Shown here piece by piece: positions 8,140 through 64,000 of a stretch of DNA of 64,000 nucleotides. This DNA is from Zygnema cylindricum (lineage: Eukaryota; Streptophyta; Zygnematophyceae; Zygnematales; Zygnemataceae), in assembly GCA_037447655.1 (NCBI GenBank), contig JBBHKE010000098.1, positions 1-64,000 of the forward strand, read 5' to 3'. The notes beneath the pieces are model-generated. The model saw only the letters and a program-made list of their open reading frames with translations. It did no database searches and was not told the DNA's origin. Made by a program: the position numbers and the translations under genes. The number at the start of each line of letters is the position of its first letter. Position 1 is the stretch's first letter.

Positions 8140-9009
8140 GTCCCATATTCTCGGTTGTGTTAGCCAACTCCTCTGCAAGCTAAGGAATTGGGGGAGGGGA
8201 TTATTTGGTTCATGTCACGTAAAGGTAAAATTCTTTTCCTATTCTTTTTCTCATTCACATAGGTCACTTCTCATGATCTATATAATTTTTGTCTTTTCAT
8301 GTGATTTTGTTGAATTTCACATCTGTATATTTTTTTGACAATGACTATGCTGGTTATGATGTATGATTTGCATTGCTTGCCTCTTATTCACGACAAATGT
8401 CATGCCGCATTATATCAGTTAGTCGCACGCATAATTTTTTGGCACGCACGATATTATGCACGCACGCACGATTTTAGCACGCACGCATGATTTTTGTTCG
8501 CACATGTGGTTTTGGATCTTACACACAAATTTCCTATGGTCCCTTGTTTCAAATCATTGGTTCATTTATTTGTGACGTGTACGTGATTGGCTTACGCGTC
8601 TAGTGGAATGAATACTAATTTAGTGCATTTTGTTTCATTTGCTGCGTAGGTACACAATTTAAATCGCGTACCGGATATCGTTTAGAGGTCATACAAAGAG
8701 AGATTGACGAACCTCAGCGATATTTCATTTGTTTTTTTGTTTTTGCTTGTACTTTCACTTTGGTTGGACTTTCGCAACCTACAAATCGCATGTTTGGGGA
8801 GCGTTTTGCCGCGCTTTGAATTTGGTTATGTATTGAAGTCGTGAACTTATGTAGGTTCGCTCACACACGTAGTTAGGGAGGGATTTTACCTTTGGACAAT
8901 GGATTTTTTGGAAGATGATTTGGTTTAACTTCACGTCTTTATATATTCTTGAGAATGACTTTGCTGGTTATGCTGCATTATTTTCCTTGCTTGCCTCTCA
9001 TGCACGACA
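8140..9009 (+). mobile_element. G-family element G0, 3' end (internal tail, B1, short A2, B2)
   Basis: 8140-8189 matches the internal end of G3 (60730-60774). A polypurine tract GGGGGAGGGGA lies at 8190-8200. B1 runs 8201-8395 and ends in GACA, two bases (AA) follow, and A2 starts at 8398 with TGTCATGCCGC. A2 is shortened and lacks the later part of the A repeat. B2 begins near 8920 and ends CATGCACGACA at 9009. The right flank is the integrase coding sequence of copia F. This second B1-A2-B2 block shows that the layout of G3 is not an accident. Confidence 0.75.
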
Positions 9010-26873: not shown

Positions 26874-26894
26874 TATTTCCCGTGACTAGACAGC

Positions 26895-35631: not shown

Positions 35632-35632
35632 C

Positions 35633-35644
35633 TGGTATCGGAGC
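35633..35644 (+). promoter_or_regulatory. primer-binding site, initiator tRNA-Met 3' end (H2)
   Basis: TGGTATCGGAGC, one base after the LTR. Confidence 0.9.
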
Positions 35645-35665
35645 TATTTCCCGTGACTAGACAGC

Positions 35666-36564: not shown

Positions 36565-36609
36565 TAATGTCCAAAACGGAAAAATCCAGGAAAGGGGAAA
36601 ATTAACGTC

Positions 36610-36865: not shown

Positions 36866-38232
36866 TTCATGTATTACCTCTTGGGGACCATGAGGTAATC
36901 TTCGGGAAGCCGTGGCTGCAAAAATGGAATCCGACGATCGATTGGAGAAGTGGGGCCATGAGAATGAAGAAGGGTGAATAAAAGTTTGAGGTAAATGCGG
37001 GAGCGGGTGGTAAAGGAGTGGAAGAGGGACGCCTACTTTCGGCCTTACAGCTTAAGAGGGCACTCAAAAAAGGGGAAACTATTGGTGTAGCGGTCATCCA
37101 GCCCATGGAGGAGGCGAAGGAGGAGGTTCTGGAGGAATGGAAGAAGAAGGACCCCGACTTCGACTCAATATAAAGAGACGACACTGGAAAGACTTCCGAA
37201 GAGGCCCCGGAAGTCGTGACAAAACTTCTCGAGGAGTACGTAGATGTTTTTCCCCCGAAGCTCCCCGAGGGCATACCTCCGAAGCGCGAAGTAGACCACA
37301 AGATAGAACTTGTTCACGGAGCGGTACCTCCGGCTAATCGGATGTACAAGATGAGTTACACCGAATTAGACGAACTCAAAAAGCAACTCGCGGAGTTGGT
37401 CAAAGCCGGAGCAATAGAACCGAGCAAGTCACTGTATGGAGCCCCCGTTCTCTTCGTGAATAAAAAAGATGGAGGTTTTCGTATGTGTGTGGACGACCGA
37501 GCCCTAAACAAGTTAACGGTGAAGAATGCGTACCCTTTACCGAGAATTGACGAATTGTTGGATCGACTTCGAGGTGCTAAATATTTCTCGAAGATAGATT
37601 TGCGGAGCAGTTATCACCAGATTAGAATTGCAGAGGAGGATGTGAAAAAGACAGCGTTTAGAACGCACTATGGCCATTTCCAGTTTCGGGTAATGCCGTT
37701 CGGGTTGACTAATGTGCCGGCGACCTTTATGCATCTGATGAACTCTATCTTCCGGCAATATCTGGACGCGTTTGTAATCGTCTTTCTCGACGACATCTTG
37801 GTGTATAGCCGAACGCTGGAGGATCACATGAAGCATCTACGCACGGTCTTACAAATCCTTCGGGAAAATAAGTTGTACGCAAAGAGGAGTAAATGTGACT
37901 TCTTGAAGGAGAAAATTAATTTTTTGGGCCATGTGGTGAGCCGGGACGGAATCACGGTGGATCCGAGCAAAACGAGAGCAGTGAAGGAGTGGCCGCAGCC
38001 GGTGAATATTACGGAATTGCGGAGCTTTCTGGGATTATGCTCCTACTATCGACGTTTTTTCGAAGGTTTCGCAAAAATCGATGCACCACTCACCGAATTG
38101 CTCAAGAACGACGTGCCCTACGAATGGAAACCAGCACAAGGGGCAGCTTTTAACACGCTAAAAGAGCGGTTGGTTACCGCCCATGTGTTAGCTGTTCCCG
38201 ACTCGAACTTACCTTGGACAATAATTACAGCA
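36866..38232 (+). pseudogene. pol: gypsy reverse transcriptase (H2)
   Basis: After an acidic linker with a stop near 37171, the RT frame 37216-38230 is open: [76 protein letters not shown] near 37780-37810 (catalytic pair), then the thumb with [18 protein letters not shown] and [16 protein letters not shown]. It has all RT motifs, although the usual VDYRAL reads VDDRAL. A one-base shift near 38228 moves RNase H to another frame. Confidence 0.93.
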
Positions 38233-39488
38233 CCAGCGATACGGCTATTGGAGCGATCCTTATGCAGGATCAAGGAAAAGGCCTACAACCCATTGCCTAC
38301 AACAGTCGAAAGTTTAAGGCAGCGGAGCTTAACTGGGCCACCCATGAAAAGGAGACAGTTGCGATCATCAACGCGTTGGAAGTTTGGAAATGTTACGTTC
38401 AAGGGAAACGGATCACAATTATCACGGATCACCACGCCATGCAGTACTTGCAAACACAACCGAAGTTGTCAAAGAAACAAGTGCGATGGATGACGTTTCT
38501 GCAGAACTTCAGGCCGGAACTTGTCATTGAGTATAAGTCAGGTAAGACAAATCCGACGGATGCGCTGAGTGAAAGACCCGGATTCGCTGCGCCAGTGGCG
38601 GATCAACGATCGCAAACATCGCAGGATGTAGACGTAAGCTCAGTGAAAAAGAACACCGTAGTGTCGGACACAACGCAAGATCCGAAACTCAGCGCAGTCA
38701 CTAGTACGGTGCAAGTGGATGAGCAGTGGCTAAGTAGAATCAAGGCCGCATACGATGAAGACGAGACATTAAAGGAATTGATAAAACGGAAGGTCTTAGT
38801 TCGGACCGCCAATGGTATGTGGCGATACAGACGGAGTCAAACAACTAGACTTTACGTTCCGACAAACCAGGAGCTACGTCATTCAATACTTAAAATAAGT
38901 CATGATGAACCGCTCAGTGGACATTTCGGCCGAGATAAAACAACCGCACGTGTCGCTGAGGCGTATTATTGGCCAAACATGACTAGAGACATCGCGGAGT
39001 ATGTCCGGACGTGTGACTCTTGTAACATAAACAAATCAGAATCGGGTCACCAGGGTCTGTTACAACCCCTTCCAATACCATCTGTTCCTTGGGAAGCGAT
39101 TTCGATAGACTTCATCGTTGCTCTCCTGTTGACCAAGGAAGGTTATGACTCTATTTTTGTCGTCGTGGATTACTTGACGAAAATGGCCCATTTCTTACCC
39201 TCGACAACCACAGCCACAGCGCGTGATGTTGCGGACTTATTCTTTCGGGAGATATTGCGCCATCACGAACTCCCACGGAGGATCGTCAACGACCATGATC
39301 GAAAATTTGTGAGTCACTTTTGGAGAAGTCTGTTCGAGTTGTGTGGAACACACCTGGCCATGTCCACAGCTTACCACCCTCAAACGGATGGTCAGACTGA
39401 AAGGGTGAATCGAACTTTGGAGGAGGCGTTGCGGGCTTATGTCTTAGTGCACCAAACGGATTTAGTGAACCATCTCACAGCGATTTAG
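38214..39488 (+). pseudogene. pol: gypsy RNase H and integrase (H2)
   Basis: 424 residues. RNase [54 protein letters not shown]. Integrase zinc-binding segment: HDEPLSGHFGRDKT and CDSCNINKS (HHCC). Catalytic core: ISIDFIVALL (first aspartate), IVNDHDRKFVSHFWR (second), TAYHPQTDGQTERVNRTLEE (glutamate). The initial residues come from the shift region. A single stop at 39486 splits it from the integrase C-terminus, which is in the same frame. Confidence 0.93.
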
Positions 39489-40140
39489 GTGGCGTACAAC
39501 AGTGCGGTGCACTCGTCCACGAATGCTACGCCATTCTCCCTCAATGGACAACAACCCACCCTTCCACAAAACTTATTGGTAGCGAACTGCCCTACGCCGA
39601 CAGCTCTGGATTTTACCAAAACGTTGCAAAGGAACCAGGAAAAGGCAACAAAGGCGCTCCAGTTGGCAAATGATCGTCAAAAGTCGCAGGCCGACTCTCA
39701 CCAAAAGGAAATCGTTTTCAGCGTGGGTGATAAGGTTCGCTTTAATATGGCAAACCTCTCCTTACCAGGTGCCCTCTCTAAGAAATTACCACCAAAATTC
39801 ACGCGCCCATTCACGGTTCTGTCACGTTTGGGTGAGGTGGCTTATAAGTTGGATATTCTGAAGGAGTGACATATCCACAATGTCTTCCCTGTTTCCCTTC
39901 TTAAACCATTCCGAGACCCTGATTTGATGTTTCTTAATCGACGGCGGAATACTCCTTTGCCCCTCGTTCACGGAACCTCGGACGAGTATGAGGTGGAGGA
40001 GATCCTTTAGTCGCGCCGCTCTCGGAATTCGAACTCCAGCCAGTATCAGGTGCGTTGGAAGGGCTACGGAGTTGAGGACGACTCTTGGGTGAACGAGGAG
40101 GATCTGCATTCTCCTGAGTTACTGCGCCGGTTTCAAAAGA
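39489..40140 (+). pseudogene. pol: integrase C-terminus with chromodomain (H2)
   Basis: 39489-39866 has the GPY/F-type region (FSVGDKVRFNMANL, LSKKLPPKFTRPFTVLSRLG, VAYKLDI). After a stop comes HNVFPVSLLKPF, and at 39987-40130 a chromodomain: YEVEEIL, stop, then YQVRWKGYGVEDDSWVNEED and LLRRFQK. Chromodomains bind modified histone tails and steer insertion to heterochromatin, which marks H2 as a chromovirus. Three stops interrupt this part. Confidence 0.9.
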
Positions 40141-40972
40141 GTGAGGACACTCAACTTCACCGGAGGGGCAATCGCAACGGCCCCGGTAGAGGAACGAATG
40201 GCAGTGCCGCAACCATCGCAATTATATTGGGGACACGGCGAAGAAACGCAGCGACAATGTTCCCGCATTTCAGCGATACAGCGGCGCAGCAACCGCAGCG
40301 CAGCATAGTTACGGTGCCGTCAGAGGAATGCAGCGCCACCGCTGCGCTGACAGTAAAGCGCAACAGAGCAATTGTCTTTCACCACATTTGTGACAACGAA
40401 CCCTCGGTTCCGCCGCAGCAGCGCAGTTTTATAAATATTGGACACTGCGATAACCTCGTACGCTACGACGCTTCGCAGAATCCAAACGGGTTACTCCGCC
40501 ATTATCACCCGTGGGATGTTCGTCTGCATGACATCATCTCTCGGGCGGAGGTTACACCCGAGGTACGGGCACTGAAGCTGGCCCGGAAGAACGCTCTCTA
40601 ACGAGCCCAAGCCGCCAGGAAACATGTTTCCTTTAAATTAAGGAAAGTACCGCGCTGGGAACCGCCAGAGGGGGTGGCGGAAAGGGCACAGCAAGCCGAG
40701 GAACCCGAATCTGCCCAAGCCCCGGCACTAGATGAACCTGCACTGGTAGCCATTCTCATGCAACCCGAGGCATCAGCAGAGGCACCGAAGGAAGGGGAGG
40801 ACCAGGTTCAGGAGCGAATCACTCGGAGACGCTTGGCACCGGCGGACCACCTTATTGCTCTGTAGGAGACTCGTTGTGAGCAGCTCCAACATCAACTTGA
40901 TACCCTACGACATGAACTTGAGGAGTACCGTCAGGAGACATACTGCATGCTCCAAAAATTACAGTTTCCTTG
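40141..40972 (+). pseudogene. extra frame downstream of the chromodomain (H2)
   Basis: Reading continues after the chromodomain for about 830 bp with few stops (near 40601, 40863 and 40972). It is alanine-, arginine- and glutamine-rich at first, then has HPWDVRLHDIISRAEVTPEV, a region rich in PEG, PEA and AEEPES, and ends in a likely coiled coil (CEQLQHQLDTLRHELEEYRQE). Chromoviruses usually end shortly after the chromodomain. The function is unknown; a separate structural protein or a gag-like helper would be guesses. Confidence 0.5.
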
Positions 40973-41014: not shown

Positions 41015-41017
41015 CAT

Positions 41018-41500
41018 TGTAACAGGGTTACAGGGTTGAGTACTTAGTGGCTAGAAACTAGGCTGCTATGGTTGGGGTTGCAGAGTAGCGCAGCTGCGAT
41101 ACCAGACTAGCGCAACATAGCAGCATAACAACTTAGTAGAATAGCGTAGCGCAGCAAAGCAACGCAGCGTGGCAGTATAGCAATGCGGTAAAATGTAGAT
41201 TTAACTGTATAGTTCTAGAAAGACATCTTGGATAGATCTCGATTGACCGCGAAGGTCCACGTGTACATTTGTACAATGTTGGTTTGACTAGCAGCTAATT
41301 AGTTTAAATAGTGGGACAGTCGTAGTGAAAGGGACTCTTTGATTAGACCTTCGCAGCGAGCGCTGAATCTTGTAATCCCCTCTTGAGAAATAAAGCGCAA
41401 CCTTGTCTGTCACTGCTGTATGCGCCTGCTGTTACTACGGGAAGCTTTGCACTGTGCATTGTGGTGTTTTGTGGTACTTATATTTTTTGTCCCTTTTACA
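41018..41500 (+). repeat. H2 3' LTR
   Basis: 483 bp, TGTAACAGGG to CTTTTACA, followed by ATAAT. Confidence 0.95.
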
Positions 41501-48755: not shown

Positions 48756-49292
48756 CTATCTTCCCATCCCCTCGCTCAATCTCAACTGAAGGAATTTTCT
48801 TGAGTTTTGCAAACTACCTTTTATCTCGACACATGTGCATTGATGCTCCGGAGTCAATGATCCATCCTTCTTCCGGCTTCTCTCAGACTCCTCGAAAGTC
48901 TCATCTCTGCTTTCTTGGAATCCCAACATGTTTTCAATCCGACTTCTCATTCAAACGAAGTTCCTCCGACTCCTCGTCCTCCTCGGATGACTCTTAATCC
49001 TCATTTCCATGAACATTTGTCAGAAGAGCCTTCTTGATCTCCCTTTGGCTCACATTAGCTTGGCCATCCTTGGTCATTAGAGCGGCAGCCCGGTTACAAT
49101 CTGCCATGCAATGCCCTAGTTTCTTACAAAAATGGCATACTCCTTTTGGAGGTCCCCTTCCCTTTCCATCAGAACCCCCTCCCTCTTTTTTTTTCCCACC
49201 AAAATTTTTGTGATCATTTCCCAAGCGGCAATCACCACGCTTCCTCCAAGCAGTTCCAGCTGCTAATGCGTGTACATTTGGAATATCTTTCT
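48756..49292 (-). pseudogene. gag-pol: copia C protease, zinc knuckle and gag end
   Basis: A protease-region frame sits at 48756-48950, and the protease active site (GWIIDSGASMHMC-like, plus-strand 48825-48880) is intact in sequence. The CCHC knuckle CHFCKKLGHCMADC is intact at 49098-49142 within an open stretch, preceded by a glycine-lysine-rich segment (NFGGKKKEGGGSDGKGRG). The frame is cut at 49292 by G1; the N-terminal part of gag is not found in the window. The knuckle is closely similar to that of E2. Confidence 0.83.
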
Positions 49293-49567
49293 TGTCATGC
49301 TGCATCGCGTCGGCTGCTCGCGCGCACGTTATCATGCACGCACGCGCGGTATTTTGCACGCACGCGCCGTATTTCTCACGCACCCGCAGTATTTCTCACG
49401 CACGCGCGGTATTCTGCACGCACGCGCGGTATTTTGTATGCACGCGCAGTTTAAGGCATGCGCGCTCGGTTTTATGCATGCACGCGCGGTTTTATGCATG
49501 CACGCACGATTTTGGCACGCGCGCATAATTTTTGTTCGCACGTGCAATTTAATTCCGATTCATATTT
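49293..49567 (+). mobile_element. G-family element G1, left end
   Basis: Starts TGTCATGCTGCATCGCGTCGG after the flank TTCT and runs through the CG-rich repeat array of the A repeat until the assembly gap. In the array it is closest to the A1 repeat of G3. Confidence 0.85.
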
Positions 49568-49577
49568 NNNNNNNNNN
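49568..49577. other. assembly gap (10 N)
   Basis: Ten N bases. Sequence on the right (49578 onward) does not continue the A repeat, so an unknown amount of G1 and probably the rest of copia C gag are missing here. Confidence 1.
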
Positions 49578-51099
49578 CTGTACGTGTCAAAACTTATCAG
49601 TGTTTTCACACGTCGCAGGTGTTGAGGGTGTTCTATCGGAAGAAAACAGAATTGTTACTTATAGAGTGTGATGGTTGTGGACGCTGCACACTTTTGTGAC
49701 TATTCAAAACTGTGCATGTCGATTTTTTTGTAACGTTATGACCGTCTAGTTTTTTTTTGTGACATTGTAGATGTCTAGGTTTTTGTGACATTTTTTCGTC
49801 ATGCTCACTTGTGACAGCATCGCTAGTAATATAACTTCCTCGATGGCTTCTCGATTTTGTTTATTTGTCCTTTCTAACTCGATGGGTCACCAAAATACAC
49901 CAGAAAGAAGTTAAAAAAAATAAAATAAAAATAGCGCTCTTTGATTTCTACCAATATTGTCGTATTTCATTCCAAGAAGAGGGATAGGGGGGTGGTAGTG
50001 GTAGTGTGAGGAGGAGAGGGAGAGGTGACGACGACATGTAATTTGGTAAGGAACCCATGAATGAAACGGGTGGTTTGGAAATTGTGTACTTATTAGAGGA
50101 ACTAGTCGTGACAATTCATCAATACATCGGTTATATTCAGTTTGATATACAGATGAAGCACTATCGCGACAAATCCGTTCTGAGTTTATACTATAGTTCT
50201 TTACTTTCAGTATACAAAGTACGGACATGATTGTGATAATTTCCTAACCCCCACAAGAATTGTTATACCCCCCTTTAAAATATATGAACGATAACTTTTT
50301 AGTTGGTGCAGCCGAAGATTGACCAAACCGAACCGAACCAAGAGTCGGGTCGAGTGCTACCGTATCGTGAAAATGTAATTATGTATTATGCGTTGTTGTA
50401 TCGTCTTACATACTTCACAGCTTTTAGTGTTGATACCAATAGCGATACACCATATTGTTTTTTATTTTGTTATCCGCACCGCATATCGAAGCTGGTCTAT
50501 TTTCCCGATATGTGTCTCTAACCTACCTACGTATCTGAATTGTGTCGTCTTCTTCCTCCCTAGGCGACAGCACCTACTGCTCGTCACTATGTTCCTACGG
50601 ATCCGGCCCGCGGCCACCGCCAACCGGACGCACACGGGCGAAATCATAGGTGCGGGCCCCCTTCAGTAATCCTTAAATCTTTCCCCCCTTCCCATTTATT
50701 GTCAAAAACCCCATTCCCCCCACTAAAATTATACATGCCCATTCCTTCCTTCCATTCCTTCCTTCCTTTCCATCTTCCATCCATTTGTTGACTCCTTTCG
50801 GATCCATTTCTTCCTTCCTTCCTCCATTCCATTCCTTCCACCCTCCATCCCTCCCCCCCCAGTTTTTCCTTTATCCCTTTTTTTTCCCCCCTATTTCCAT
50901 TCCTTCCATTCCATTCGTCCGGCATCTTTTCTTCCCCTTCCTTCCTCCACTACCATTTCCACCATCTATTTCCCATGGTTTCCATTCCTACTTCCCATTT
51001 CCCCCTTCCTTTCCCTCTATTAATTCCCATGCCTCTCATCTCTCTCATTAATGACCATGTCCGGCCACGCATCCTCGCCCATTCCCCCTCGATCACCTC
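49578..51099. other. unclassified sequence with pyrimidine tract
   Basis: No coding domain found. 50690-51000 is almost pure pyrimidine on the plus strand with CCTTCCATT-type repeats. It probably includes the 5' UTR of the non-LTR element that follows. Confidence 0.5.
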
Positions 51100-53103
51100 C
51101 TCCACCTAAACCTTAATGTAGTGGGTGTCATAACCATTTTGCGACCGGTGCCGGTATTGCCCGGTATACAAAGAGTTGTCAACAATTCTTGGCCCTAGGC
51201 GGCCCTTCTTCTAGTACCCTTTCTTCCACTACACTCTCGTCCGGACCTACAAGCGAAGATTGGGTATTTGTACGCGATTTAGACGTGTTCGGACCTTATG
51301 ATTTAGGGGGCCCCCGTCCACGATTATACCCGTGGATTCCCATGGTTGTGTGAATTATCGTACAAGACGCCCTCCACCTCCCTTTGTCTCGTATTTATTC
51401 GGATCCCACGGATGTTGGACCTTAACACCTCCTTTTCATGTTTTCTCTTTGGGTTCTAGTCTTACCTGGCCGTGGCGGCGGTAGCGAGGCCCGAGAAACT
51501 ATGACTCGATGTCGACGATTCCTTCAAGGTGATAGGAGGGCCCTTCATGCCGAGCACGAGGATCGAGTTGGGAGCGCTTCTTTCACACCACGTCGTACAT
51601 CTCGGACTTTGGATTCGCCATCCTCCTATCGTCGTGCGGTTAATTTGGGTCAAGTTGGTGAGCTCTCTCGAGCGGTTCGGGCCCTCCAGCCGTTTTATCG
51701 TGCTCCTCGGTTTGCTGCGACTGTCGAGATTCTCCAGGCTCTTCCTCCACCAACACCTACCCCTCAGTCCCCCTCTATTAACACCTTCGAGCCTCTATTC
51801 ACACCTCCGAGTCGACATGGTGTTTTCTCTTGGATTGACTCTCATTCATTAAAGCCCTTACGACTTCTCCACATCTTTCAGGAGGGGGTCCTTCGGGGCA
51901 CTGTTTATGAGTTATTTCGCGACGTTTTGCCTCCGAAATCTGGTGCTCGAGGTTTTGATATGTTTTTCGAGTTTGTTCCCTTATTGCGGTTGGCAATGTC
52001 CCTTCTCGTATTTGTGATCTCCTCACGGCCTCCCGCCTCTTAGCTGTCACCAAACCCAATGGGGGAATCTGTGCATTCTCGTATTTGTGATCTCCTCACG
52101 GCCTCCCGCCTCTTAGCTGTCACCAAACCCAATGAGGGAATTTGTCCTATTGCAGTGGGTGAGGTATTGTACTGACTGGTGGCCCGCGTCATCAGCATCC
52201 AGCTCCAGCCCGCTTTCCATGATTATTTCTCTCCTCATCAATTCGGAGTGGCAACCCGAGGGGGTTTTGAGGCCGTGGTCCACGGGATCCGGACTTTGTT
52301 AGATGCCCAACCGGATTGGTTAGTCCTCCAGGTGAATGTTTCTAATGCTTTCAATACAGTGGATTAGAATGCCATTTTTTCGGAGCTTATGGCTGCACCT
52401 TCCCCGATTTTCTAGATTTTTCCCTTTGTGATAGCCTTTTATTTTCTGAGCAGTGGCCCCTCTTTCTCCACTGATGATGATTTGGTCCCACTTTGGCCTC
52501 TCTTTCTCCACTGATGACGATTTGGTCCCACTTTCCTCCACGACTGGCACTCGTCAAGGTGATCCTCTTGGGGGCCATTTGTTTGCCCTAGCCCATTACC
52601 GCACCCTCTGAGCTTCCGCGGCTGCTTACCCTTCTAGCCTCTTCCCTTTAGTTGCGGACAACACACAGATTATTAGTCCTTGAGACCAAGTTATACAGGC
52701 CTATATCTTTTTCAAGGTTCGTCTGGCCGAAGTCAATCTTTCCGTCCAGCCCTCTAAGTGTGTTGTTTGGTCCCCTCGTTCTATTCCTCCTCCTCTCACT
52801 CCCCCTCCTAGTTTTCAAACTCCTCCATCCAAAGGCATTCGTGTGTTGGGTTGCCCGCTAGGTTCCGATCCATACGTCACGAAATTCCTTGATTCCGCTC
52901 TTCAAACAAATTTTTCCCACGTGGAAGACCTTCCTCACCTTTCCGGTTCCCAGGTGTCTTTTGCTCTTCTGACACGGTGTTTCCCCCACCGGCCTTCCTA
53001 CCTTACTCGCACTTCCCCTCCCACCCCATCTTTTGTGTCCTCGCTTTTTGCATTTGATGATCGTCTCATGGATGTCCTTACAACTTTGTTGGGCCATGGG
53101 GCT
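51100..53103 (+). pseudogene. non-LTR retrotransposon: zinc finger and reverse transcriptase
   Basis: A C-2-C zinc-finger-like start (CSGCHNHFATGAG, with a later C, at 51117-51179; the expected histidine is tyrosine) is followed by the long frame 51438-52043, which reads as the region before RT (GQVGELSRAVRALQ, VLPPKSGARGFD). RT motifs then appear in broken frames: LLAVTKPN, FSPHQFGVATRGGFEAVVHG, VNVSNAFNTVD (first aspartate), GTRQGDPLGGHLFALA, and VADNTQII near 52651, where the catalytic ADD reads ADN. The end of the domain runs to 53098. Two tandem duplications (63 bp at 52013-52138, 40 bp at 52461-52540) break it. No endonuclease is seen. Confidence 0.82.
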
Positions 53104-54639
53104 TGTCATGCCGCATCGTGTCGGCTGCTCGCGCGCACGATATTTTGCCCGCACGCGCAATATTCAGCGCGCGCACGATATAATGCACGCACGCGCAATT
53201 TTATACATGCACACGCGATTTCATGCATGCACGCACGATTTGATGCACGCGCGATATTATGCATGCACGCACGATTTTATGCATGCACGCACGATTTTAT
53301 GCATGCACACAGGTTTTCATGTTGTTTCGTCGCACGTGCGATTTCACGTCGATTCATTTATTTTCACGTTTGGCTGTATAGTACTAATTTCGTGCGATAC
53401 CTTTCATTTCGTGCGTAGGTACACGATTTTCGAAGTATGGACGCGATATATCGTTTGGGCGACGCATCGCGATTCTGGGAATATTTCGTGCGATATGTTC
53501 CGTTTCGTGCGGTATTTATCGTTTCGTGCGTATGCACGCGATTTGGGGAGTATCGACGCGAAGTATTGTTTGGAGGCGTATCGCGATTTCCGAGCGACGC
53601 TTCGATATATCTATTTATTTAAGTCGCGAACCCATGTAGGTTCGCGCATACATGTAGTTAGGGAGGGTTTTTACCCTCGGACGGTGGATTTTGTCAGGCG
53701 TACGGCAGACGATGTTGGCCGCATATTGGCCAACATCTTAAGTAGTTTCATGCATGTAAAGTAGACTAGACGTAGGCTAATTTTGCTTCGGCCTAGCGTA
53801 GCTCTTACTTAGCCTAATTCTCAGACTTAGAGAATTTAGCTTTTGGACAAGAATTTTCTCTTGGCAGCGGAGCTTTTCTCTTGCTCTCTCTCTCTCACCG
53901 ATTGCTCATGCTTTCTTTTTCTTATTGCTAGTTAGCTATAGTGGCTAGATAGGTTAAGAATATTTGCTTTTTTTGTGCCTCGCTTTTAATCCACACGGCT
54001 TCGGCCAAGTCCGGAAGGTTTCCCTCCAAATTTGTCTTTTTGGCGATTGGTGGAGTGGAGGCTTGAGGTGTGGCATCTTCTGTCAAGCAGCGCCGTTCTC
54101 CGGACAGTTGGACGGTTTGTTTGAGTGTATTTATGTGTGTGGCATTTCGGTTTTCTTGGGAAAGTGTCATTTTTGGTTAATTCCGATTTTCTTGGTTTTG
54201 GTTGGAAGTGATTATTTTGCCTCGTTGCTTTCCTTTGAGATAACTCTTGTAGAGAATACGTGGAAGACCCGAGAGCCTAGTGGCTACCTCGTGGCTTAGT
54301 ATTCTTGTCCAAAATCTCTAACTTTTAAAAAGGTCTAACTTTTCAAAAGCACATATTTTAAAAAGTTTATTTCTTTAAAATAAATTAAAAATATAAAATA
54401 AAATTATTACCTTTCTTATTCAGTTTTTATTCTTATTTTTGTCTTTCCATTTTCCTTCCACTTTATCTTTCGTTTTCAGTTTTGCTTCTCAGTTTGGTGT
54501 GAGAACAAAAATCTAAAAGACAAAAATATATAAAAATACATTATTTTCAATATAAAATCCATCTTTTCATTTCTATATTTTCTTCCACCTATTTTTGATT
54601 TGGTTTTTTTCCGCTTGTTTTTTCTTTCTACAATTTTCA
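53104..54639 (+). mobile_element. G-family element G2, left part (A1 and start of internal region)
   Basis: A1 runs from TGTCATGCCGC at 53104 to about 54300, inserted in the end of the non-LTR RT frame (left flank GGCT). The internal region starts TATTCTTGTCCAAAATC and continues to 54639 with the same order of AT-rich motifs as G3 (56515-56760), then copia I sequence begins abruptly. The 5' half of A1 is closest to A2 of G3. Confidence 0.83.
53711..53737 (+). repeat. conserved stem-loop in A repeat (G2)
   Basis: GATGTTGGCC and GGCCAACATC form a perfect 10-bp stem around a 7-nt loop. The same stem is at 55924-55950 and 61603-61629. A second stem, CGCGAACC/GGTTCGCG, is at 53625-53646. Confidence 0.85.
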
Positions 54640-55282
54640 TTCACACGTTTTAGCTGATTGATCTGAAAGAGCAACTCCTTTTATTTTACTACGATGTACC
54701 ATTTTTTTTAAACTGTCATAGTTCACATGGCCTAATATTTTATGCCACAACTCATCTGAAGATAATGCACCGGAATACAAAACATCATTTTCTTTATTAT
54801 CGGGCATATCCATACGATGCATTTTGCTGGCATCTCTAGTGTCTGTGACTGCAATCTTTCTATTCTTGCTAACAACCTGCCGACCATGTTTCAAATTGAC
54901 CTCAAACCCTTTACTCTCCACCAAAAAAGTTGAAAACAAATTTTTTTTTAAATCTGGGAAAGAGAGAACATTATGAAGAGTTCTCTCAATGCCTTGCCTT
55001 CCATATCAACTAGCAAAGAGACATCACCTACTACACGTGTCTGCACAATCATACCACAAGCATATTAGATATTCTTTTTAGGTGTGGAATTTAGATTTTT
55101 GAAAATCCCCTTGTTCCAGCACATGTGTGTCAAAGCTCATGTGTCCATTATCCATCCATAGTCTTTTGCACCCTTCATTACTGCCGCCATAACAAATAAA
55201 TCCTTTTCTTCCTTCTCAGAGAATGTCAGAGACTCGTCCTTGTAAGATAAAGATGCCGAGAATAGTGCATTTCCACAAATGT
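54640..55282 (-). pseudogene. pol: copia I protease and pre-integrase
   Basis: Minus-strand reading from 55282: LFSASLSYKDESLTFSEKEE, GAKDYGWIMDT followed by a stop and ALTHMCWN (decayed protease, same wording as element A), then at 54939-54640 the pre-integrase ELWHKILGHVNYDSLKKMVH and GVALSDQSAKTC, where it ends abruptly against G2 internal sequence. The first part of I lies beyond G3 at 62382-63225. Confidence 0.85.
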
Positions 55283-56513
55283 TGTCATGCCGCATCGTGT
55301 CGGCTGCTCGCGCGCACGTTATGATGCACGCACGCGCGGTATTCTGCATGCACGCGCAGTATTTCTCAGGCACACGCAGTATTTCTCACGCACCCGCGGT
55401 ATTTTGCACGCACGCGCGGTATTTTGTATGCACGCGCAGTTTAAGACACGCGCGCGCGGTTTTATGCATGCACGCGCGGTTTTATGCATGCACGCGCGGT
55501 TTTATGGATACACGCACGATTTTGACACGCGCGCATAATTTTTGTTCGCACGTGCGATTTAATTCCGATTCATATTTTCAGTTTTAGTTGAAAGGTACTT
55601 ATTTCATGCGATATGTTTTATTTTCTGCGTAGGTAAAAGATTTTCAAAGTTGGATGCGAAACATCGTTTGGGCGACGAGACGCGATTTCGAGTATTTCGT
55701 GATAGACCTTTTATTTCGTGTGGCATGCTTCGATTCGTGCGTATGTACGCAATTTCGAAGTATATACGCGGAGTATCGTTTGGAGGCGCATCGCGATTTC
55801 CAGGCGAGGCTTCGATACACTATCTATTTATTTAAGTCGCGAACCCATGTAGGTTCGCGCCCACATGTAGTTAGGGAGGGTTTATACCCTCAGACGGTGG
55901 ATTCTGTCAAGCGTACGGCAGACGATGTTGGCCGCCTATTGGCCAACATCTTAAGTAGTTTCATGCATGTAAAGAAGACTAAACGTAGGCTAATTTTGCT
56001 TAGGCCTAGCGTAGATCTTACTTAGCCTAATTCTCAGACTTAGAGAATTTAGCTTTTGGACAAGAATTTTCTCTTGGCAGCGGAGCTTTTCTCTTGCTCT
56101 CTCTCTCACCGATTGCCCACGTGTCTTTCTTTTCCTTGCTAGCTAGCTGTAGAGGCTAGATAGAGTAAAACTATTCTCCTTGTTTTTCTACCCTCGTTTT
56201 TAATCCACACGGCCTAAGGCCACGTGCGGAAGGTTTCCCTCCAAAGTTTGTCTTTTGGTAGAAGTGTGGAATTGGAGATCGTGGGGGAGCACATCTGGAC
56301 CTTGCTGTGCCTTCCTCGAGCATCTTACCGGTTTGGTTGTGTGTTTGTGCCTTGTTTGTATATCGGTTGGCTTGAAAGGAGTGTATTTTTGATCGGATTT
56401 GGATTTTCCCTTGTTCCGGTTGAAATATTTCTTGCTTTGCAGTCGTAACGAGATAACTCTTGTAGGGAATGTGATAAAGACAGAGAGCCTAGTGGCTGCC
56501 TTTTGGCTTAGCA
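55283..56513 (+). repeat. G3 A1 repeat
   Basis: 1231 bp. Starts with TGTCATGCCGCATCGTGTCGG, then a CG-rich array of ~19-bp units, a TATA-like stretch TATTTATTTAAG (55825-55836), two stem-loops (55838-55859 and 55924-55950), AGCTTTTGGACAAGAAT at 56051-56067, and ends GGCTTAGCA. Homologous to 60975-62186 and 53104-54300. Confidence 0.88.
55300..55550 (+). repeat. CG-rich ~19-bp minisatellite at the head of A1
   Basis: Degenerate units of the type GCACGCACGCGCGGTATTTT. Long alternating purine-pyrimidine runs occur. Equivalent arrays are at 49310-49540, 53125-53320 and 60995-61210; a shorter one is at 8440-8500. Long open frames through these arrays are an artefact of the repeat. Confidence 0.9.
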
Positions 56514-56529
56514 TTCTTGTCCAAAAGCT
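56513..56529 (+). promoter_or_regulatory. 17-nt sequence complementary to A repeat, candidate self-priming site
   Basis: ATTCTTGTCCAAAAGCT is the exact reverse complement of AGCTTTTGGACAAGAAT within A1 (56051-56067) and A2 (61730-61746). It lies directly at the A1/internal boundary, where a primer-binding site would be. G2 has the same pair with one mismatch (53838-53854 and 54301-54317). Confidence 0.65.
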
Positions 56530-58281
56530 GCACTTTTCAAAATCACATTTTCTCAAAGTCTATTTATAAAAAAAATATAAATTATTAAAAATAAATATTT
56601 TATTTCATAAAAATAAATATTACCTTTCATATTCAGGTTTTATTCTTGTTTTTGTCTTTCCATTTTCCTTTCACTTTACCTTTCATTTTCAGTTTTGCTT
56701 TGAAATAAAAATATTATAAAAATAATTATATTTTCAAATTTTATTATAAAAAAACATTTTGTTTTGTTCCTTTTCTTTCTTTCTTGCAATCCTTTCTTTC
56801 TATCTTGTTGCCACTCCATTTCTAGTCTGCAGATTTAGGTCTGATTTTGTTTCAGATTTTTAGGGTTAATCTGCAGAATTAGGGTTTGGCTGCAGATTTA
56901 GGGTTTGGGGCCGCAGATTTAGGGTGTGGGCGTATTTAGGGTTTATTTTTTGAAATTCTTAACCCTAGGTCAGCATATTACCATTCATTGGTCGCATATT
57001 TTTGATTTTTACAGCCTGGAATTAGGGTTTGGGAAACCTTTTTGCCCAATTTTACCGTATTTTGTGTCTTATTTTGAATTTTTCTCAATATTCCTCATAT
57101 TTCTTTCTTTTAGTGCAACTTAATTTGTTAACTAGTGGATGTTTATTTTGTTTGGGATTTGATATTTTCTTTATTTTTCTCTTATCAAATTTAATCATTA
57201 AGAAAACTTAACAAAATAAAAATATATACTCTATATATCAAGATTGCACGATTTAACACCTATAATTATCACCGCTTTATAGTTGGGCATAGCGTGGCAT
57301 AGCGCCGATACGCTTACCCTAGCAGGATACTAGTTGCTTTGGTGTTTAGCGGTGGTTTTTGACACGTTTATTCAGAATCGGAGCAAGTTCGATTCCAAGG
57401 AGCTCTGCGAAATCCGACTTGCCTCGACCAAGTCCGTTTCACTTTTAGTACTCACCAGAGTATTAAAGGTGTTTGTAAGCATCACGATGCCTTGCGGGTG
57501 CAGAAGTGTTTCTTTGTAATTTGGACACTCGTGTAGGGGTTCGGTGTGGATTGGTTCTATTACGAACCTTTCTTTTTGAGCATTTGCATTTTCCTTGTTT
57601 TCTTAGCATACTATCTGGCCGTGAGTGGCCTTGAGTTTCCTTGTGACTATCTAGATTGGATTTTCATTCATAGATCTCGCCGTGGGTGGCATTATTTAGA
57701 CAATTTTCTGTCTGTGCCGCTATAGATCTGCACCAAAAGGTGCCTGGATAGTTCTCTATTTTTTTTTATAGATCTGGCCCTTCCGCCTTGCCCTATTGTT
57801 TGTAGGGTAGAGGTTTTGGTATTCCGACTTCTTGCTAGATCTGATCACCGGGTCTTGATAGAGACTTCGTGTGTTAGCTTGTCTTGTGTGGTTTGGCCTT
57901 CCATTTGACGTACCTCGATTAGGCCGTTCCCTTCTTTCCTAGTCGTAATCGAGGGTTTTCTCTTCGTTTATGCCCACAGATTGGGATAACTTACGTTATC
58001 AATCCGGATCTACCCGCGGCAAGACTGTTTTCCGTCCACCGTAGTTAGATCTTTCTTGTTTTTTCGAGTCTACGAACGCACCAATTTCGGTTCCGACTTC
58101 TAGATCTCCGTCAGTTCGATCAGTATTGACCACAGTCTCACCATTATCCTCGATTTCCTCTAAGTCATACCTAGATAAAACTGAAGAAGAGTTTTCAGAG
58201 GAAATCTTTTCTCATCCTCTTACATTTCAATTTCCGGTTAGTCCAAATTTGGAACAACCGGTGTATCCTCCTTTTGACGAC
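56530..58281 (+). other. long leader of G3
   Basis: About 1.75 kb, no domain recognised. The first 250 bp are AT-rich and match G2. 56828-56946 holds several TTTAGGG or AGGGTTTGG motifs within CTGCAGATTTAGGG-type repeats. Confidence 0.6.
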
Positions 58282-59585
58282 ATGGCTTCCTCCTCAGAGG
58301 GATCTATGGGCAGGATGCAATTTTGTTTTTCCGGATTGAAGGATACCATGTCCTTATCTCATTTCCGCATGCTTTATCACACATAATTGAGGGACTTAAC
58401 CTTCCAATATCAAGACCGGTTCGACCTTAGGGTCGCTTTCTCTCTCCTTGGTCGAAACCTTCGGGGTTCGGCTCTCACTTTATACACACGGAAGTATGAG
58501 AGTATCTGTCAAATGACAGAGCACTCTCTACCCTTTGCAAGACTTCCAGATGTTTCCAGCCAGGTAAAAATTCCCTACGAGGCAGCTATTCCAGCAATAT
58601 AGGACGTTAATGGGGATGAACTATATCCAGCTATCCCGAGATTCCTCAACAGTATGCTGTGGCTGCCCAAGCGGCAGTTCCAACTAGACCGGGAGGATTA
58701 ATTTTTTTACGTGACCCGCTTTCGGTCATGTTCGATCTTCTCCAAGAAGAATATCGGATGCAAAATCTAGATCAGGTTAAGGAGTTGATGAACTTCAAAC
58801 GTAGGCCGGGTGAGACTGCCCATGTTTTCCGAGCTCGAATAGAAACCCTTCGAGAAGCCTTACCGGACCTTATGTCCAATGCGGAGGCTGTCCAAAAATT
58901 CGTGGGACAGTTTCCTCCTCAATCGAAAATATTCATTCAGACTCATCTCAGTCAAACCTACGGGCTGAAATTTACCTTTGAGCAAGCGGCTGAATATGCG
59001 GTTAGGTATGAGATGCAATCGTCGTGGTGGGATGCTCATGACTATCGCGAATCTCAAGGAAACGAATTTGACCAATCCCCACCACCTTCGAGGAACCCGT
59101 GGCCTTCTAATAGGCCTCCAAAGACGCCGGCCATGGGAAACCCGCCATTTCATTCTTGAGACCGATTGTGTTTCCGATGTGGAAACACGAGGCATGATGC
59201 CCGCATGTGCCCGGATAAGTCGGCCACATCAACCATTGCCAGCAGAAAGGACATTACGTCCACCGTTGCCATGTTAAGGACCCTAATTTCTCTTATGAGA
59301 ATCAGATTCAGAACGGTGTAATTCTTGCCCGTTTTGCCAAGCCTGTCATTCCTCCTGCCGAGACCGAGAAAGAGACGACTCCGCCTAAGATCTCTCGACG
59401 AGAGAGAGAGAAAAGGCCGAGTTACAAGTCATGATGGCCGCCATGATGAAGGAGCATTTTGTCGCCTTCATGGCCGAAATGAAACCCCAGTTCACGGGGA
59501 TGGCAATGACAGTCGTCCACATGCCATCGTTGGCCGGCCGAATCCTTCGACATTGTACTGTCTAACAACGAGCATCTACTTTTGA
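58282..59585 (+). pseudogene. gag: G3 gag with zinc knuckle
   Basis: A likely start is ATG 58282 (MASSSEGSMGRMQFCFSG), although the frame is open further upstream. Stops at 58384 and 58600 and a frameshift follow. The part 58659-59159 reads as a retrotransposon capsid domain: LQEEYRMQNLDQVKELMNFK, RRPGETAHVFRARIETLREA, FVGQFPPQSKIFIQTHL. An intact CCHC knuckle, CFRCGNTRHDARMC, is at 59169-59210, and a decayed second one (HCQQKGHYVHRC) follows. The capsid wording is of the Ty3/gypsy-like Retrotrans_gag type, not copia. Confidence 0.75.
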
Positions 59586-59969
59586 TAATGGCTCGCCTGA
59601 TCATAATCGAGACGGTAAATTACAGAATTCCCGTATTCCACTTTCTTTCGAGAAAGTATCTCTCTCTCCTCTACCAGACACAGCTTCTTCCATAGTGGCT
59701 GAAGCAATCACCAGTTTGGATAGTACCATACATGATGCACACCGGGTCAAGGAACGACTAAGCATTTTTTTTGCCATGGTTGATGAAGCCCCCAAGGACT
59801 CTCCCTTTCCTAACGAGGTTCCCAAAGCCTCTCCCGTTGTTGATGAGTTCGCTGCAGCCGCCGCTTTGAGAGCGTTGCAGCTGAACCATAGTTTTTCAGT
59901 TATTCAACTGGTTACCGCGGATGAGCGTCGTGACCTTGATCCTCACATCACTTTCTTGGAAAATGCTTG

Positions 59970-60774
59970 AAAGTCCTTCTGCATTAATGGTGTTGCTCCT
60001 TATCTACCTCTCATGGATACCGGAGCCAAACCCGTGGTCGTTGGATCCGGATTTGCGCTCAAGCTTAGTCTGATAGCAGACAAGCTCCAAGCCACGGCTA
60101 CTCGGCTTCTCACTTCAGCCGGTAACACGGAGCCAGTGCTTGGAATCACCAAGGACCGGCTCACCTTTCGATTCCAAAACGGAACCGAGGGTGAGTGCGT
60201 GGAAGTTTCTGTCCGAGCATTGGTCACCAAATGCAATGACTGCGAATGCTTAGTGGGACAGGATGTTATCTTCCGAATCGGTGGGGGAATTGATATGCAT
60301 GATCAGACCTTCTCCTACCATCCCTCTAATTTTCCGAGACGCAAAATTTTCCTCCCTCTTGTCTCGGCTCATAAAGCGTTGCCCACCATGGCACATTTGG
60401 CTTCCGCTCTCCCTGCATTTTCCAGTATCGACCTTAGGGAAGACAATTGCGACTCTCTTTTCCCAGAAAGGATCCTTCCAGCCACCCCACCTTTGCGAGA
60501 TAGTTTCAGTGAGCCCGGTTTTCTCATCGACTCGCGTCATCTCTTGAAAACCATCCACACCAAGGTCTCTCCACACATTCTCCATGTGGTGGACAACGAT
60601 ACTAACGAGATCTTGAGTTTGCAGAGGGTGTATACATGTACAGTTGGTGATCAAGGGTTCCACATGGAGTGCCTCTCTTCTCCATTATCTTTCAAACCTG
60701 CTGACCATTGCTGCCTCTATATCTGTTCCGAGCCCTCAGTTGTGTTGACCACCTCCTCTACAGGCTTAAGAGCT
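59970..60774 (+). pseudogene. pol: G3 aspartic protease and C-terminal extension
   Basis: The frame 60013-60807 (with a few residues upstream, YLPLMDTGAK) has the retropepsin motif DTGA at 60016-60027 followed by the second half motif CLVGQDVIFRIGGGIDMHDQ. The active-site aspartate is kept. Beyond the protease, about 150 residues of unknown function continue to the polypurine tract, with no RT motif. In gypsy-like elements RT would begin here, so either RT was deleted or this family never had it. The last ~20 residues overlap the polypurine tract and B1. Confidence 0.72.
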
Positions 60775-60785
60775 GGGGGGGGGGA
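60775..60785 (+). promoter_or_regulatory. polypurine tract before B1
   Basis: Ten G then A, directly before B1 (TTATTGGGTCC). The matching tract in G0 is at 8190-8200. Confidence 0.75.
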
Positions 60786-60972
60786 TTATTGGGTCCACTC
60801 ACTGTAGGGGAGTATTCTTCCCCTTCTCTCTTTGATAATTTTCACCTTTATTCCTTCTCATGGTGTATATAATTTTTGTCTTTTCATATTTATTTTCGTT
60901 GTTATATATGTTTATGAGCATGACTTTGCAGGTTTTGATGTATGTTTGCTTGCTTGTCTCTCATGCACGACA
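60786..60972 (+). repeat. G3 B1 repeat
   Basis: 187 bp, TTATTGGGTCC to CATGCACGACA. Homologous to B2 (62191-62381) and to 8201-8395. Confidence 0.85.
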
Positions 60973-60974
60973 GC

Positions 60975-62186
60975 TGTCATGCCGCATCGTGTCGGCTGCT
61001 CGCGCGCACGATATTCTGCTCGCACGCGCAATATTCGGCGCGCGCGCACAATATAATGCATGTACGCGCGATTTTATGCATGCACACGCGATTTCATGCA
61101 TGGACGCACGATTTGATGCACGCGCGATATTTCGCACGCACGCGCGATATTATGCATGCACGCACGATTTTATGCATGCACGCACAATTTTATGCATGCA
61201 CACATGTTTTCATGTTGTTTCGTCGCACGTGCGATTTCACGTCGATTCATTTATTTTCACGTTTGGCAGTATAGTATTAATTTCGTGCGATACTTTTCAT
61301 TTCGTGCGTAGGTACACGATTTTCGAAGTATGGACGTGATATATCGTTTGGGCGAGGCATCACGATTCTTGGAATATTTCGTGCGATATGTTTCGTTTCG
61401 TGCGGTATTTATCGTTTCGTGCGTATGCACGCAATTTCGGAAGTATCGACGCGAAGTATCGTTTGGAGGCGTATCGCGATTTCCGAGCGACGCTTCGATA
61501 TATCTATTTATTTAAGTCGCAACCCATGTAGGTTCGCGCATAGATGTAGTTAGGGAGGGTTTTTACCCTCGGACGGTGGATTTTGTCAGTCGTACGGCAG
61601 ACGATGTTGGCCGCATATTGGCCAACATCTTAAGTAGTTTCATGCATGTAGAGTAGACTAGACGTAGGCTAATTTTGCTTCGGCCTAGCATAGCTCTGAC
61701 TTAGCCTAATTCTCAGACTTAGAGAATTTAGCTTTTGGACAAGAATTTTCTCTTGGCAGCGGAGCTTTTCTCTTGCTCTCTCTCTCACCGATTGCTCCAC
61801 GTGTCTTTCTTCTTCTTGCTAGCTAGCTGTAGAGGCTAGATAGAGTAAGACTATTCTGCTTGTTTTTCTGTCCTCGTTTTTATTCCACACGGCCTAAGGC
61901 CACGTGCGAAAGGTTTCCCTCCAAAGTTTGTCTTTTGGTGGAAGTGTGAAATTGGAGATCGTGGGGGAGCACATATGGACATTGTTGTGCCTTCCTCGGG
62001 CGGCTTACCGGTTTGGGTGTGCCTTGTTTGTATTTCGGTTGGCTTAAAAAGGGTGTATTTTTGATCGGATTTGGATTTTCCCTTGTTCCGGTTGGAATAT
62101 TTCTTGCTTTGCTGTCGTAACGAGATAACTCTTGTAGGGAATGTGATAAAGACCAAAGAGCCTAGTAGCTACCTCGTGGCTTAGCA
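60975..62186 (+). repeat. G3 A2 repeat
   Basis: 1212 bp. Its head and middle are closest to G2, its last part to A1 of the same element. One stem-loop arm (61515 region) has lost a base; the other stem (61603-61629) is intact. Confidence 0.87.
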
Positions 62187-62190
62187 TTAG

Positions 62191-62381
62191 TTATTCGGTC
62201 CACTTCACTCTAGGGGAGTATTCTTCCCCTTTTTCTCTTTGGGTCATTTCCCCTTTTATCGTTTCTCATGGTGTATACGTTTTTCTCTTTCTCATTCATT
62301 TTTCGTTTGAATATATGGTTGTCCACATGACTTTGCTGGTTGTGATGCATGTTTGCTCTTTCTGGTCTCTCATGCACGACA
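62191..62381 (+). repeat. G3 B2 repeat and right end
   Basis: 191 bp, TTATTCGGTCC to CATGCACGACA, followed by ATGT and copia I. About one base in four differs from B1 by eye. Confidence 0.85.
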
Positions 62382-63284
62382 ATGTAGATCCACTAAAGCC
62401 TTGATTTAACTGCTATGTTGCCATCCAGGCCTGTACAAACCTGTTTCGTTAGCTCTCTTAAGCATAGGGCAGAACTTATATCCATGACATTTTTCATTAC
62501 AATAAAAACAAGCACTGAAAGACTATCTATTCCCTCTCGGATTAAACTGTTTAAAAAGATTCTGGTACTGATTAAACTAACTTCTTTGCTGATTAAAAAT
62601 ATTTCTTTACTGATTAAACTAAGCTTGTTTGTCAAAGTCTGACTTAAAGACCTCTACCTGCTTTTCTGCACTAAGAATTTTTAGAATCAGCCTCATTCTC
62701 TAATATCAAATTACTAGCTAAGTGTAAAGTCCAACTAGCTTTATCTTTCTGTTTCAGCGTATCATACGTTGCTTTCATAGTATTAGGAAAACCCATCATT
62801 AACAATGCAGCCTACTGAAGCTAAGGGAATGATCCACCTGCACGAGCATGAGAGTCTATTAGAATTCGAAACTTGTTACCATATTTGGCCATTGAGTCGC
62901 CCGTGAATTTATAGTCCCACATTTGTCCAGCCAAAATAGTTCTTTTTGGACCTTAGCCTTTTCGTAATCATCTTTAAAAGACCTCCAGATATCGATCGCC
63001 TTTTTCATTTTTATTCGAGACATAGCCAATTCTTATGAGATACACAATTTTAGATTAGATTGAGCTTGCAAATTTTTCTTTGACCAAGATGCATTTGTTT
63101 CCGCTAGGGAGCCATCCAAAATATCCAAAAGGTTAACATTTTCCAAGTGTGTTTGCAACATATCTGCCCAATAAATATATTTTTCTCCGGAGAAGATCGG
63201 AATTCTTGATGACAGGCCCATAACCTGTTGTTCCACGACCACTAGAGCAGGTGAAGCAACAACAGTAGTAGTAGAAGTAGACAT
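62382..63284 (-). pseudogene. gag: copia I gag starting in the LTR
   Basis: From the ATG complementing 63282-63284 the frame reads MSTSTTTVVASPALVVVEQQ within the LTR, then VMGLSSRIPIFSGEKYIYWA across and after the primer-binding site, and 83 residues in total before a stop at 63033. Further gag sequence follows in broken frames, with a decayed zinc knuckle near 62480-62520 (YCNEKCHGY-like). Copy I has the best-kept version of the LTR/primer-site/gag overlap. It is the same family as A. Confidence 0.85.
63213..63225 (-). promoter_or_regulatory. primer-binding site, initiator tRNA-Met anticodon arm (I)
   Basis: Minus strand GGTTATGGGCCTG directly after the LTR end GAACAACA. GGTTATGGGCC is the exact complement of the initiator tRNA-Met anticodon loop and part of the stem. 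It encodes VMGL of gag. Confidence 0.8.
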
Positions 63285-64000
63285 AATTCACTCACAGGAG
63301 CTTACCAAAATCCTACCAAAAACCTGTTTTCTACAGCTCACCAAATTTGACACAAATGACCAAACTATTTCAAAATATACCACATTATAGAATATTACAA
63401 AGAATGATAACTCCCAAAGTTTCAACCCAATTGATTCATCATTCCTCAAGATAAATGACTCAGAAATTTCCCAAAAATAGTTTGCAGATTACACAATCTA
63501 GAAGTCTGGATACATAAAATGTTCTAAGTCCTTAGTCTTGTACTCGCAGTGAGTATCTACTCTTAGTTTTCCTATTATATAGTATTGTACCTGAGATTCA
63601 AATGTACTTGAGAGGTAAGTCGAAAAACCAAAATGCCACTAAGATCTAAGTACTCTTAATCATTCTAAAACTAATATACCACTGTAGAGTCAATTTTACT
63701 TAGAAATCTATAATTTGTGATTGTACAAATACTTGTCGTTGGCTTAGTTAGTGTTGTCCGGATACGTCCATCCGGTTGTTGCGAAACCACCTGCCAGCTA
63801 AGTCATTTGTGATCCTCTTTTAAATCTCGTCTGTCGATGTCATTCATATTAACCGCGGCTACGTTGTCCCGTACCGGATCATTCCCAAAATAGCCCCTTT
63901 CTTTCTCGTTCGTCCGATTCTGAGACTCCACTTGTTCATTGCGTGACACGCGTATGTGGGTGTCGGCACCATTCCGAAATACCTACACTATCCTCAAGTG
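63226..64000 (-). repeat. copia I 5' LTR, runs off the window
   Basis: Plus-strand start TGTTGTTCC, the complement of the LTR end GAACAACA. At least 775 bp; the outer end is beyond position 64000. No coding sequence besides the gag start. Confidence 0.8.

Follow-up and report, generated by a model that had tools for sequence, protein, structure and literature searches.

The standard teaching is that retroviral and retrotransposon DNA integrates by its linear ends, and a target duplication fixed at 4 bp is a mark of a DDE integrase. Tf1/sushi, Tcn1 and TAR elements integrate in ordinary long terminal repeat (LTR) form, and Ngaro and PAT elements are not known to give a target duplication when they integrate. 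Ngaro, PAT and VIPER are described, in passages of three papers, with split direct repeats in the order A1-internal region (int)-B1-A2-B2 (PMC4157794, PMC6681497, PMC8547959), and an excerpt of another describes DIRS1-like integration as giving no target duplication (PMC3266345). Tf1/sushi elements and the plant Tcn1 and TAR elements are described as priming themselves (PMC6317226). Panganiban and Temin (1984) had retroviral integration proceed via an LTR-LTR circle junction, a claim that subsequent studies of linear DNA supplanted, according to a section of a later account (PMC11054761). Here we describe a retroelement family of Zygnema cylindricum, found in a window of 64,000 nucleotides (the whole stretch of DNA analysed: positions 1 to 64,000, forward strand, of contig JBBHKE010000098.1, assembly GCA_037447655.1), where its copies G0 to G3 lie (Table 1). 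It is probably a non-autonomous gag-protease retroelement of the LTR type, with its integration site inside its own LTR and with complementary DNA (cDNA) that is joined end to end before insertion. The accessible text of the one open-access library searched gave no account of any LTR-type element laid out as A-int-B-A-B.

The anatomy can be read directly from the genome. Alignment reproduced what a reading of the sequence alone had proposed for G3, namely the order A1-int-tract-B1-A2-B2, the outer ends TGTC...GACA and the flanking ATGT, and excision of G3 does rejoin copia I, the copia copy that it interrupts. The same reading was right that both G2 and G3 pass from A1 into the internal region with no B between, and that G0, which is ~72% identical to G3, has the order tract-B1-A2-B2, here with a deletion of the A2 end and the B2 start. 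The three left ends that it had found to begin alike (49293, 53104 and 55283) belong to a set of five A starts in the window, all of which open with TGTCATG (the others are at 8398 and 60975).

A search with A of the genome (352.8 Mb, 2,689 contigs) gave 1,063 candidate places, of which 40 were scored, with 44 rows listed, and 10 kb was read around each of 20 A places. Four of these 20 loci have the A-int-B-A-B layout (L012, L018, L021, L026), one is a tandem (L019), four are A-int-B (L014, L016, L022, L024), six are A-B (L009, L011, L015, L017, L023, L027) and five are truncated (L010, L013, L020, L025, L028). None has ordinary LTRs, with an internal region bounded on each side by B-A or on each side by A-B, the state which, if found in most copies, the sequence-only reading had said would overturn it. 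The tandem, L019 with L057 (G000:C2019), runs A-int-B-A-int-B-A-B between copies of a 4-bp duplication (GACC), with L057 continuing as int-B-A-B and with 2,355 unread bases between the two that span the middle of the second internal region. Ten more places, read as short pieces, comprise five that end A/int (C985, C1393, C2016, C2317, C2200), three with A/B (C669, C2254, C180), one truncated copy (C2651) and one chimera (C1084). The far end of C2200 reads tract-B1-GC-A2; the stretches read at the far ends of C985, C1393, C2016 and C2317 (L052-L055) have no match to the element. A second subfamily in G000:C1084 (L041, L050, L051) has a distinct A' and B', its own tract-B'-GC-A' with a GACA-GC-TGTC junction, and gag-protease, with a different protein end before the tract.

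Exact 4-bp duplications flank 11 of the 16 elements with both ends read, compared with 0/16 for exact 3 bp, 0/16 for exact 5 bp and 1/240 for mismatched flank pairs at 4 bp. Allowing one mismatch, the figures are 13/16 elements and 14/240 mismatched pairs. By class, the duplication is present in 6/7 A-B, 2/4 A-int-B and 3/5 A-int-B-A-B elements; C2254 (GGAT, its B end mutated to GATA) and C2019, both read by eye, bring the total to 13/18. These exact duplications point to a DDE integrase and not a tyrosine recombinase. The family thus has the fixed-length target duplication of LTR retrotransposons and lacks their identical LTRs at the integrated ends, and it has the split direct repeats of Ngaro/PAT without their duplication-free integration. 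At the B1/A2 junction, the copies read have a spacer of two bases, which is GC in G3, L012, L019, L020, L021, C1084 and C2200, GT in L026, C669 and L057, and AA in G0; L018 reads GACT-GC-TGTC.

The signals of reverse transcription are placed as in LTR retrotransposons, with the LTR displaced from the integrated ends. Among 62,577 positions tested in the window, 14-nt perfect complements at most 1,250 bases upstream occur at the A1/int boundary of G2 and at that of G3 and nowhere else, and in G3 a 17-nt self-complement adjoins A1 in the position of a primer-binding site. Genome-wide, TTCTTGTCC is kept at 21/22 A/int boundaries (L014, the exception, differs by one base), and the full 17-nt self-complement is retained in 9/14 loci tested. 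In the predicted fold of G3 RNA all 17 primer bases pair with the primer-binding site. The complement sits inside A, ~230 bases after a TATA-like stretch, and we read the site as a self-priming primer-binding site, which both its sequence signature and the joint inserts described below would fit. A transfer RNA (tRNA) primer was rejected, the site being an exact self-complement (no tool search for a tRNA match was made). The polypurine tract that had been called beforehand is present as a G10 run adjoining B1; such G tracts number two on the + strand of the window, each directly 5' of B1 (G3 and G0), and one on the − strand, at 50849. A tract precedes B1 in all 10 loci tested among the 20, in degraded form in L016. 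Since the primer site abuts A and the tract abuts B1, the LTR expected from reverse transcription is B-A, from the B start to the A end.

Within A, three blocks differ in how the copies agree. Block 1 is 95% identical between G2 A1 and G3 A2 and 77% between G3 A1 and G3 A2, the middle block is 95–98% identical in all three pairs, and block 3 is 93% identical between G3 A1 and A2 and 66–67% between G2 A1 and either. We read these blocks as the unique 3' (U3), repeated (R) and unique 5' (U5) regions of an LTR on the strength of this pattern. The R-U5 copies of L026 are 99.7% identical and its B copies 99.5%, as reverse transcription predicts. The U3-like block (55300-55560 and 61000-61210 of the window) is a tandem array of CG-rich 20-bp units, and copies seem to differ in how many of these they have. 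In the R-like block a hairpin, GATGTTGGCC...GGCCAACATC, is conserved in three A copies (53711-53737, 55924-55950, 61603-61629) and is possibly a packaging or dimerisation signal.

The A/B joint is variable, and the other boundaries are near-faithful. The A end and B start are both present in 12/15 A/B copies, with 0–7 nt between them and seven different inserts; the other three (L018, L021, L023) have deletions there. The A end is CTTAGC (CTCAGC in L015, TTGAGC in C180) and the B start AATTATT (AATTATC in L011, GTTATTCGG in G3). There is no insert in L027, and the others are AT (L015, C669, C180), ATA (L011, L057), ATT (L009, L026), ATTA (G3, L012), ATTCG (L017) and ATTCTTG (C2254, CTTAGC-ATTCTTG-AATTATT). 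Every non-empty insert opens with bases that match the primer site ATTCTTGTCC, over 2, 3, 4 or 7 nt. A variable joint amid near-faithful boundaries fits end-to-end joining of a linear B-A-int-B-A cDNA at each transposition. The joint may instead have been made by reverse transcriptase (RT) jumping between cDNA ends rather than by host end joining, a sub-version of the same model that does not exclude it and that we consider rather unlikely: the 0–7 nt that match the primer site suit a jump, while the three joints with deletions look more like end joining, though these could be later deletions.

The scheme that we propose takes RNA ends, a circle and an enzyme as suppositions. The RNA would run from the R-like block of A1 into A2, and would prime itself at the A1/int boundary to yield a linear B-A-int-B-A cDNA. 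Joining of the two ends of this cDNA (...GGCTTAGC followed by a few bases of the primer site, and AATTATTGGG...) would then produce a 2-LTR circle, or else a tandem joint. A DDE integrase provided in trans would recognise the near-palindromic B/A junction (GACA-2 bp-TGTC) inside one LTR and cut there, so that A-int-B-A-B would be inserted with a 4-bp duplication, beginning with TGTC at the A start and finishing with GACA at the B end. Later recombination of A1 with A2 would leave A-B copies; A-int-B copies may come from recombination of B1 with B2 or from direct insertion of a 1-LTR circle. With the integrase site in mid-LTR, a linear cDNA would not be insertable in the usual way. We lean modestly toward the stronger claim that this is a natural lineage which integrates obligately via end-joined cDNA (the 2-LTR circle), with its integrase site in mid-LTR.

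Only gag and protease are seen in the element. Its G3 gag, broken by stops and frameshifts, has no profile match, and the G3 protease frame matches Pfam Asp_protease_2 with an E-value of 0.0013, below the cut-off; in L021, zf-CCHC is above the cut-off and Asp_protease_2 exactly at it, and the domain matches of L012, L020 and L022 stay below. The DTGA protease proposed beforehand is present as a frame, with profile matches of this borderline kind; of the gag that had been called gypsy-like, the CCHC knuckle is matched above the cut-off in L021, and G3 gives no profile match. Long open frames cover gag or protease in several of the 12 copies listed. The ratio of nonsynonymous to synonymous rates (dN/dS) is 0.27–0.43 for gag-protease (simple pairwise estimates; ten pairs among five copies chosen for their long open protease frames; 355–509 codons), which suggests selection on the gag-protease protein while pol is not kept in cis. 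RT, RNase H and integrase were not seen in cis in the copies read. The C1084 subfamily was considered as an autonomous partner and rejected: its gag-protease is followed by copia-like sequence, with no pol of this element seen. The protease frame and one gag frame, as single-sequence queries of a large protein collection, have no relatives at E ≤ 0.001; exact DNA patterns gave 0 matches in viral and genome contigs; the best match in a comparison with Protein Data Bank sequences (E 0.08) is not meaningful, and the structure model of the protease frame, with a mean predicted local distance difference test (pLDDT) score of 33, is unusable. Rfam over window positions 49000-64000 gave 0 matches, as did NCBIfam.

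Several observations weigh against an LTR-type element that integrates through its end-joined cDNA. Five of 18 elements have no exact duplication (L012, L014, L017, L021, L022), of which L017 and L021 are a single base away from one, and L021 and L026, whose left flanks are the same, may represent a single insertion that entered the count two times. The duplication is clear at insertions other than G3, where it had first been proposed and where it is equivocal. In a hand-counted alignment with copia II, the G3 site in copia I has 52 nt with one ATGT and 56 with both, and copia II has 53; G3's single site therefore does not prove a duplication, and the copia I frame, as we read it, fits better with both ATGT as original sequence (no duplication), both copia copies being decayed. 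At the A/B joints, the parse depends on the chosen B start, a match to the primer site over 2–3 nt may be accidental, and inserts recur (AT three times, ATA, ATT and ATTA twice each in 12 copies) in a way that would also fit an inherited joint, so that the 4- and 7-nt cases carry most weight. The full 17-nt complement is missing from L013, L014, L018, L025 and L028, which keep 15, 11, 10 or fewer nt, and the predicted G2 RNA fold pairs 0/14 primer-site bases. No RNA end or circle was observed, nor RT or integrase in cis or in trans, so the type of enzyme is read from the duplication alone.

A further difficulty is that G3 A1 and A2, which are 93% identical in U5, are only 77% identical in U3, a pattern that simple reverse transcription within one molecule does not produce; G3 B1 and B2, at 79%, are also below U5. 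The U3 blocks of L026 likewise match less well than its R-U5 (93.8% with 142 gapped positions, versus 99.7%), and U3 versus R-U5 identities are 92.6 versus 95.5% in L012, 96.0 versus 97.8% in L018 and 97.7 versus 97.9% in L021. The excess could come from two RNAs packaged together, from gene conversion, from a circle that recombined with an A-B copy already resident, or from a CG-rich U3 that decays faster. The third of these, taken as an account of the whole layout, has a 1-LTR circle (int-B-A) recombine homologously within the A of a resident A-B copy to give A-int-B-A-B inside an old duplication. It explains how G3 A1 and A2 come to have different U3 types and one U5 type, and A-B copies are common (6/20 loci), but it leaves unexplained the origin of A-B copies that have duplications of their own and joints that vary, and the near-identity of the R-U5 and B copies of L026 also argues against it; we consider it unlikely.

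More doubtful still is an Ngaro/PAT-kind tyrosine-recombinase element that happens to carry a protease, its circle recombining into the target without duplication. Such an element would share the A1-int-B1-A2-B2 layout, and AB repeats that stand alone are likewise on record for Ngaro (PMC8547959, PMC4157794); the near-palindromic B/A junction also resembles a recombinase site. Against it stand the exact 4-bp duplications (13/18, versus 1/240 mismatched pairs), where DIRS1-like elements give none according to the excerpt cited above (PMC3266345). The flanking 4 bp of the insertions are not found in the 2-bp junction spacer, an LTR-type primer site, polypurine tract and protease are present, and 31 open reading frame queries (scans of such frames only, not of the whole genome) gave no tyrosine recombinase domain, though a partner could carry one. 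Of the two possibilities that the sequence-only reading had left standing, an LTR-type element with a permuted integrated form is thus the one favoured by the self-primer site, tract, duplications and variable joints, and the duplications disfavour the tyrosine-recombinase type. An ordinary LTR element, its LTR being A or A-B and its copies rearranged or tandemly deleted, was rejected as highly improbable: its TGTC...GACA ends and duplications do resemble ordinary LTR termini, and the neighbouring gypsy element of the window is ordinary (TGTAAC...TTTTACA, beside tggtatcggagc), but the layout counts contradict it (0/20 loci with ordinary LTRs), and in independent copies the primer site abuts A and not B, and the tract B and not A.

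Table 1. Positions in the window of the parts of G3 and of the other copies of the family
Feature	Position	Strand	Remarks
G3, left target duplication copy ATGT	55279..55282	+	
G3, A1	55283..56512	+	Integrated left end TGTC; delimited by block identities, alignment and boundary
G3, A1 blocks	U3-like 55283-55820; R-like 55821-56116; U5-like 56117-56512	+	
G3, self-primer sequence AGCTTTTGGACAAGAAT	56051..56067	+	Inside A1
G3, primer-binding site ATTCTTGTCCAAAAGCT	56513..56529	+	Exact 17-nt reverse complement of self-primer; starts at the next base after A1
G3, gag, broken frames	58045..59967	+	CCHC knuckle CFRCGNTRHDARMC in frame starting 59130
G3, protease frame (DTGA)	59971..60807	+	C-terminal extension crosses polypurine tract
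G3, polypurine tract GGGGGGGGGG (G10)	60775..60784	+	
G3, B1	60785..60972	+	First part of the LTR predicted from reverse-transcription signals; ends GACA
G3, putative integration junction inside LTR	60965..60982	+	GCACGACA-GC-TGTCATGC, near-palindromic
G3, A2	60975..62185	+	
G3, A2/B2 joint ATTA	62186..62189	+	3 nt equal the primer-site start, then A; read as end-to-end cDNA joint
G3, B2	62190..62381	+	Integrated right end GACA
G3, right target duplication copy ATGT	62382..62385	+	
G2, A1 and int start	53104..54650	+	14-nt primer-site match at 54301-54314; copia I from about 54651
G0, diverged 3' end	8150..9009	+	Tract (8190-8199)-B1-AA-A2-B2
G1, left A end, U3-like block	49293..49567	+	Interrupted by 10-N gap at 49568

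Other elements share the window. The gypsy element contains an 8.8-kb tandem duplication (96.6% identity; 20977-38496) that gives it the form LTR-int-LTR-int-LTR, with LTRs at 26366-26860, 35137-35631 and 41016-41500 and a chromodomain match at 40011-40598. We take tggtatcggagc, next to its LTR, to be a tRNA-Met-like primer site. Among the best 120 of 2,842 protein matches of a gypsy frame, identities are 37–53% and those that name an organism are from Closterium, which points no further than to a host of the green lineage. RT-like frames at 51426-53100, into which G2 inserted at 53104, were read by eye as of the non-LTR type; the two that were scanned have no Pfam match.

If an LTR-type element does integrate through its end-joined cDNA, a circle-junction route of integration exists in nature, as a third way for a reverse-transcribed genome to integrate, beside linear-end DDE reactions and recombinase circles. 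It would also offer a model for split direct repeats arising from LTR elements. Split direct repeats would then not be diagnostic of tyrosine-recombinase elements, and annotation may therefore misfile or miss such families.

Set beside the systems named at the outset, as far as the cited passages describe them, the family is like Ngaro, PAT and VIPER in its A1-int-B1-A2-B2 order and in the isolated AB repeats of its genome, and unlike them in its 4-bp duplications, LTR-type primer site, tract and gag-protease, with no recombinase seen. It resembles Ty3/gypsy gag-protease in its CCHC knuckle and DTGA aspartic protease, whereas RT, RNase H and integrase in cis, as well as protein relatives (E ≤ 0.001), were not found. 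With Tf1/sushi, Tcn1 and TAR it shares a primer site that complements a stretch of the element itself and borders the LTR that reverse transcription defines; its integrated form, unlike theirs, is permuted, and its complement is internal to A rather than at a demonstrated RNA start. With the model of Panganiban and Temin, again as the cited account gives it, the family would share the use, for integration, of a circle junction between two LTRs that lies within the element; in contrast to their experimental claim, the route proposed here is drawn from naturally occurring copies.

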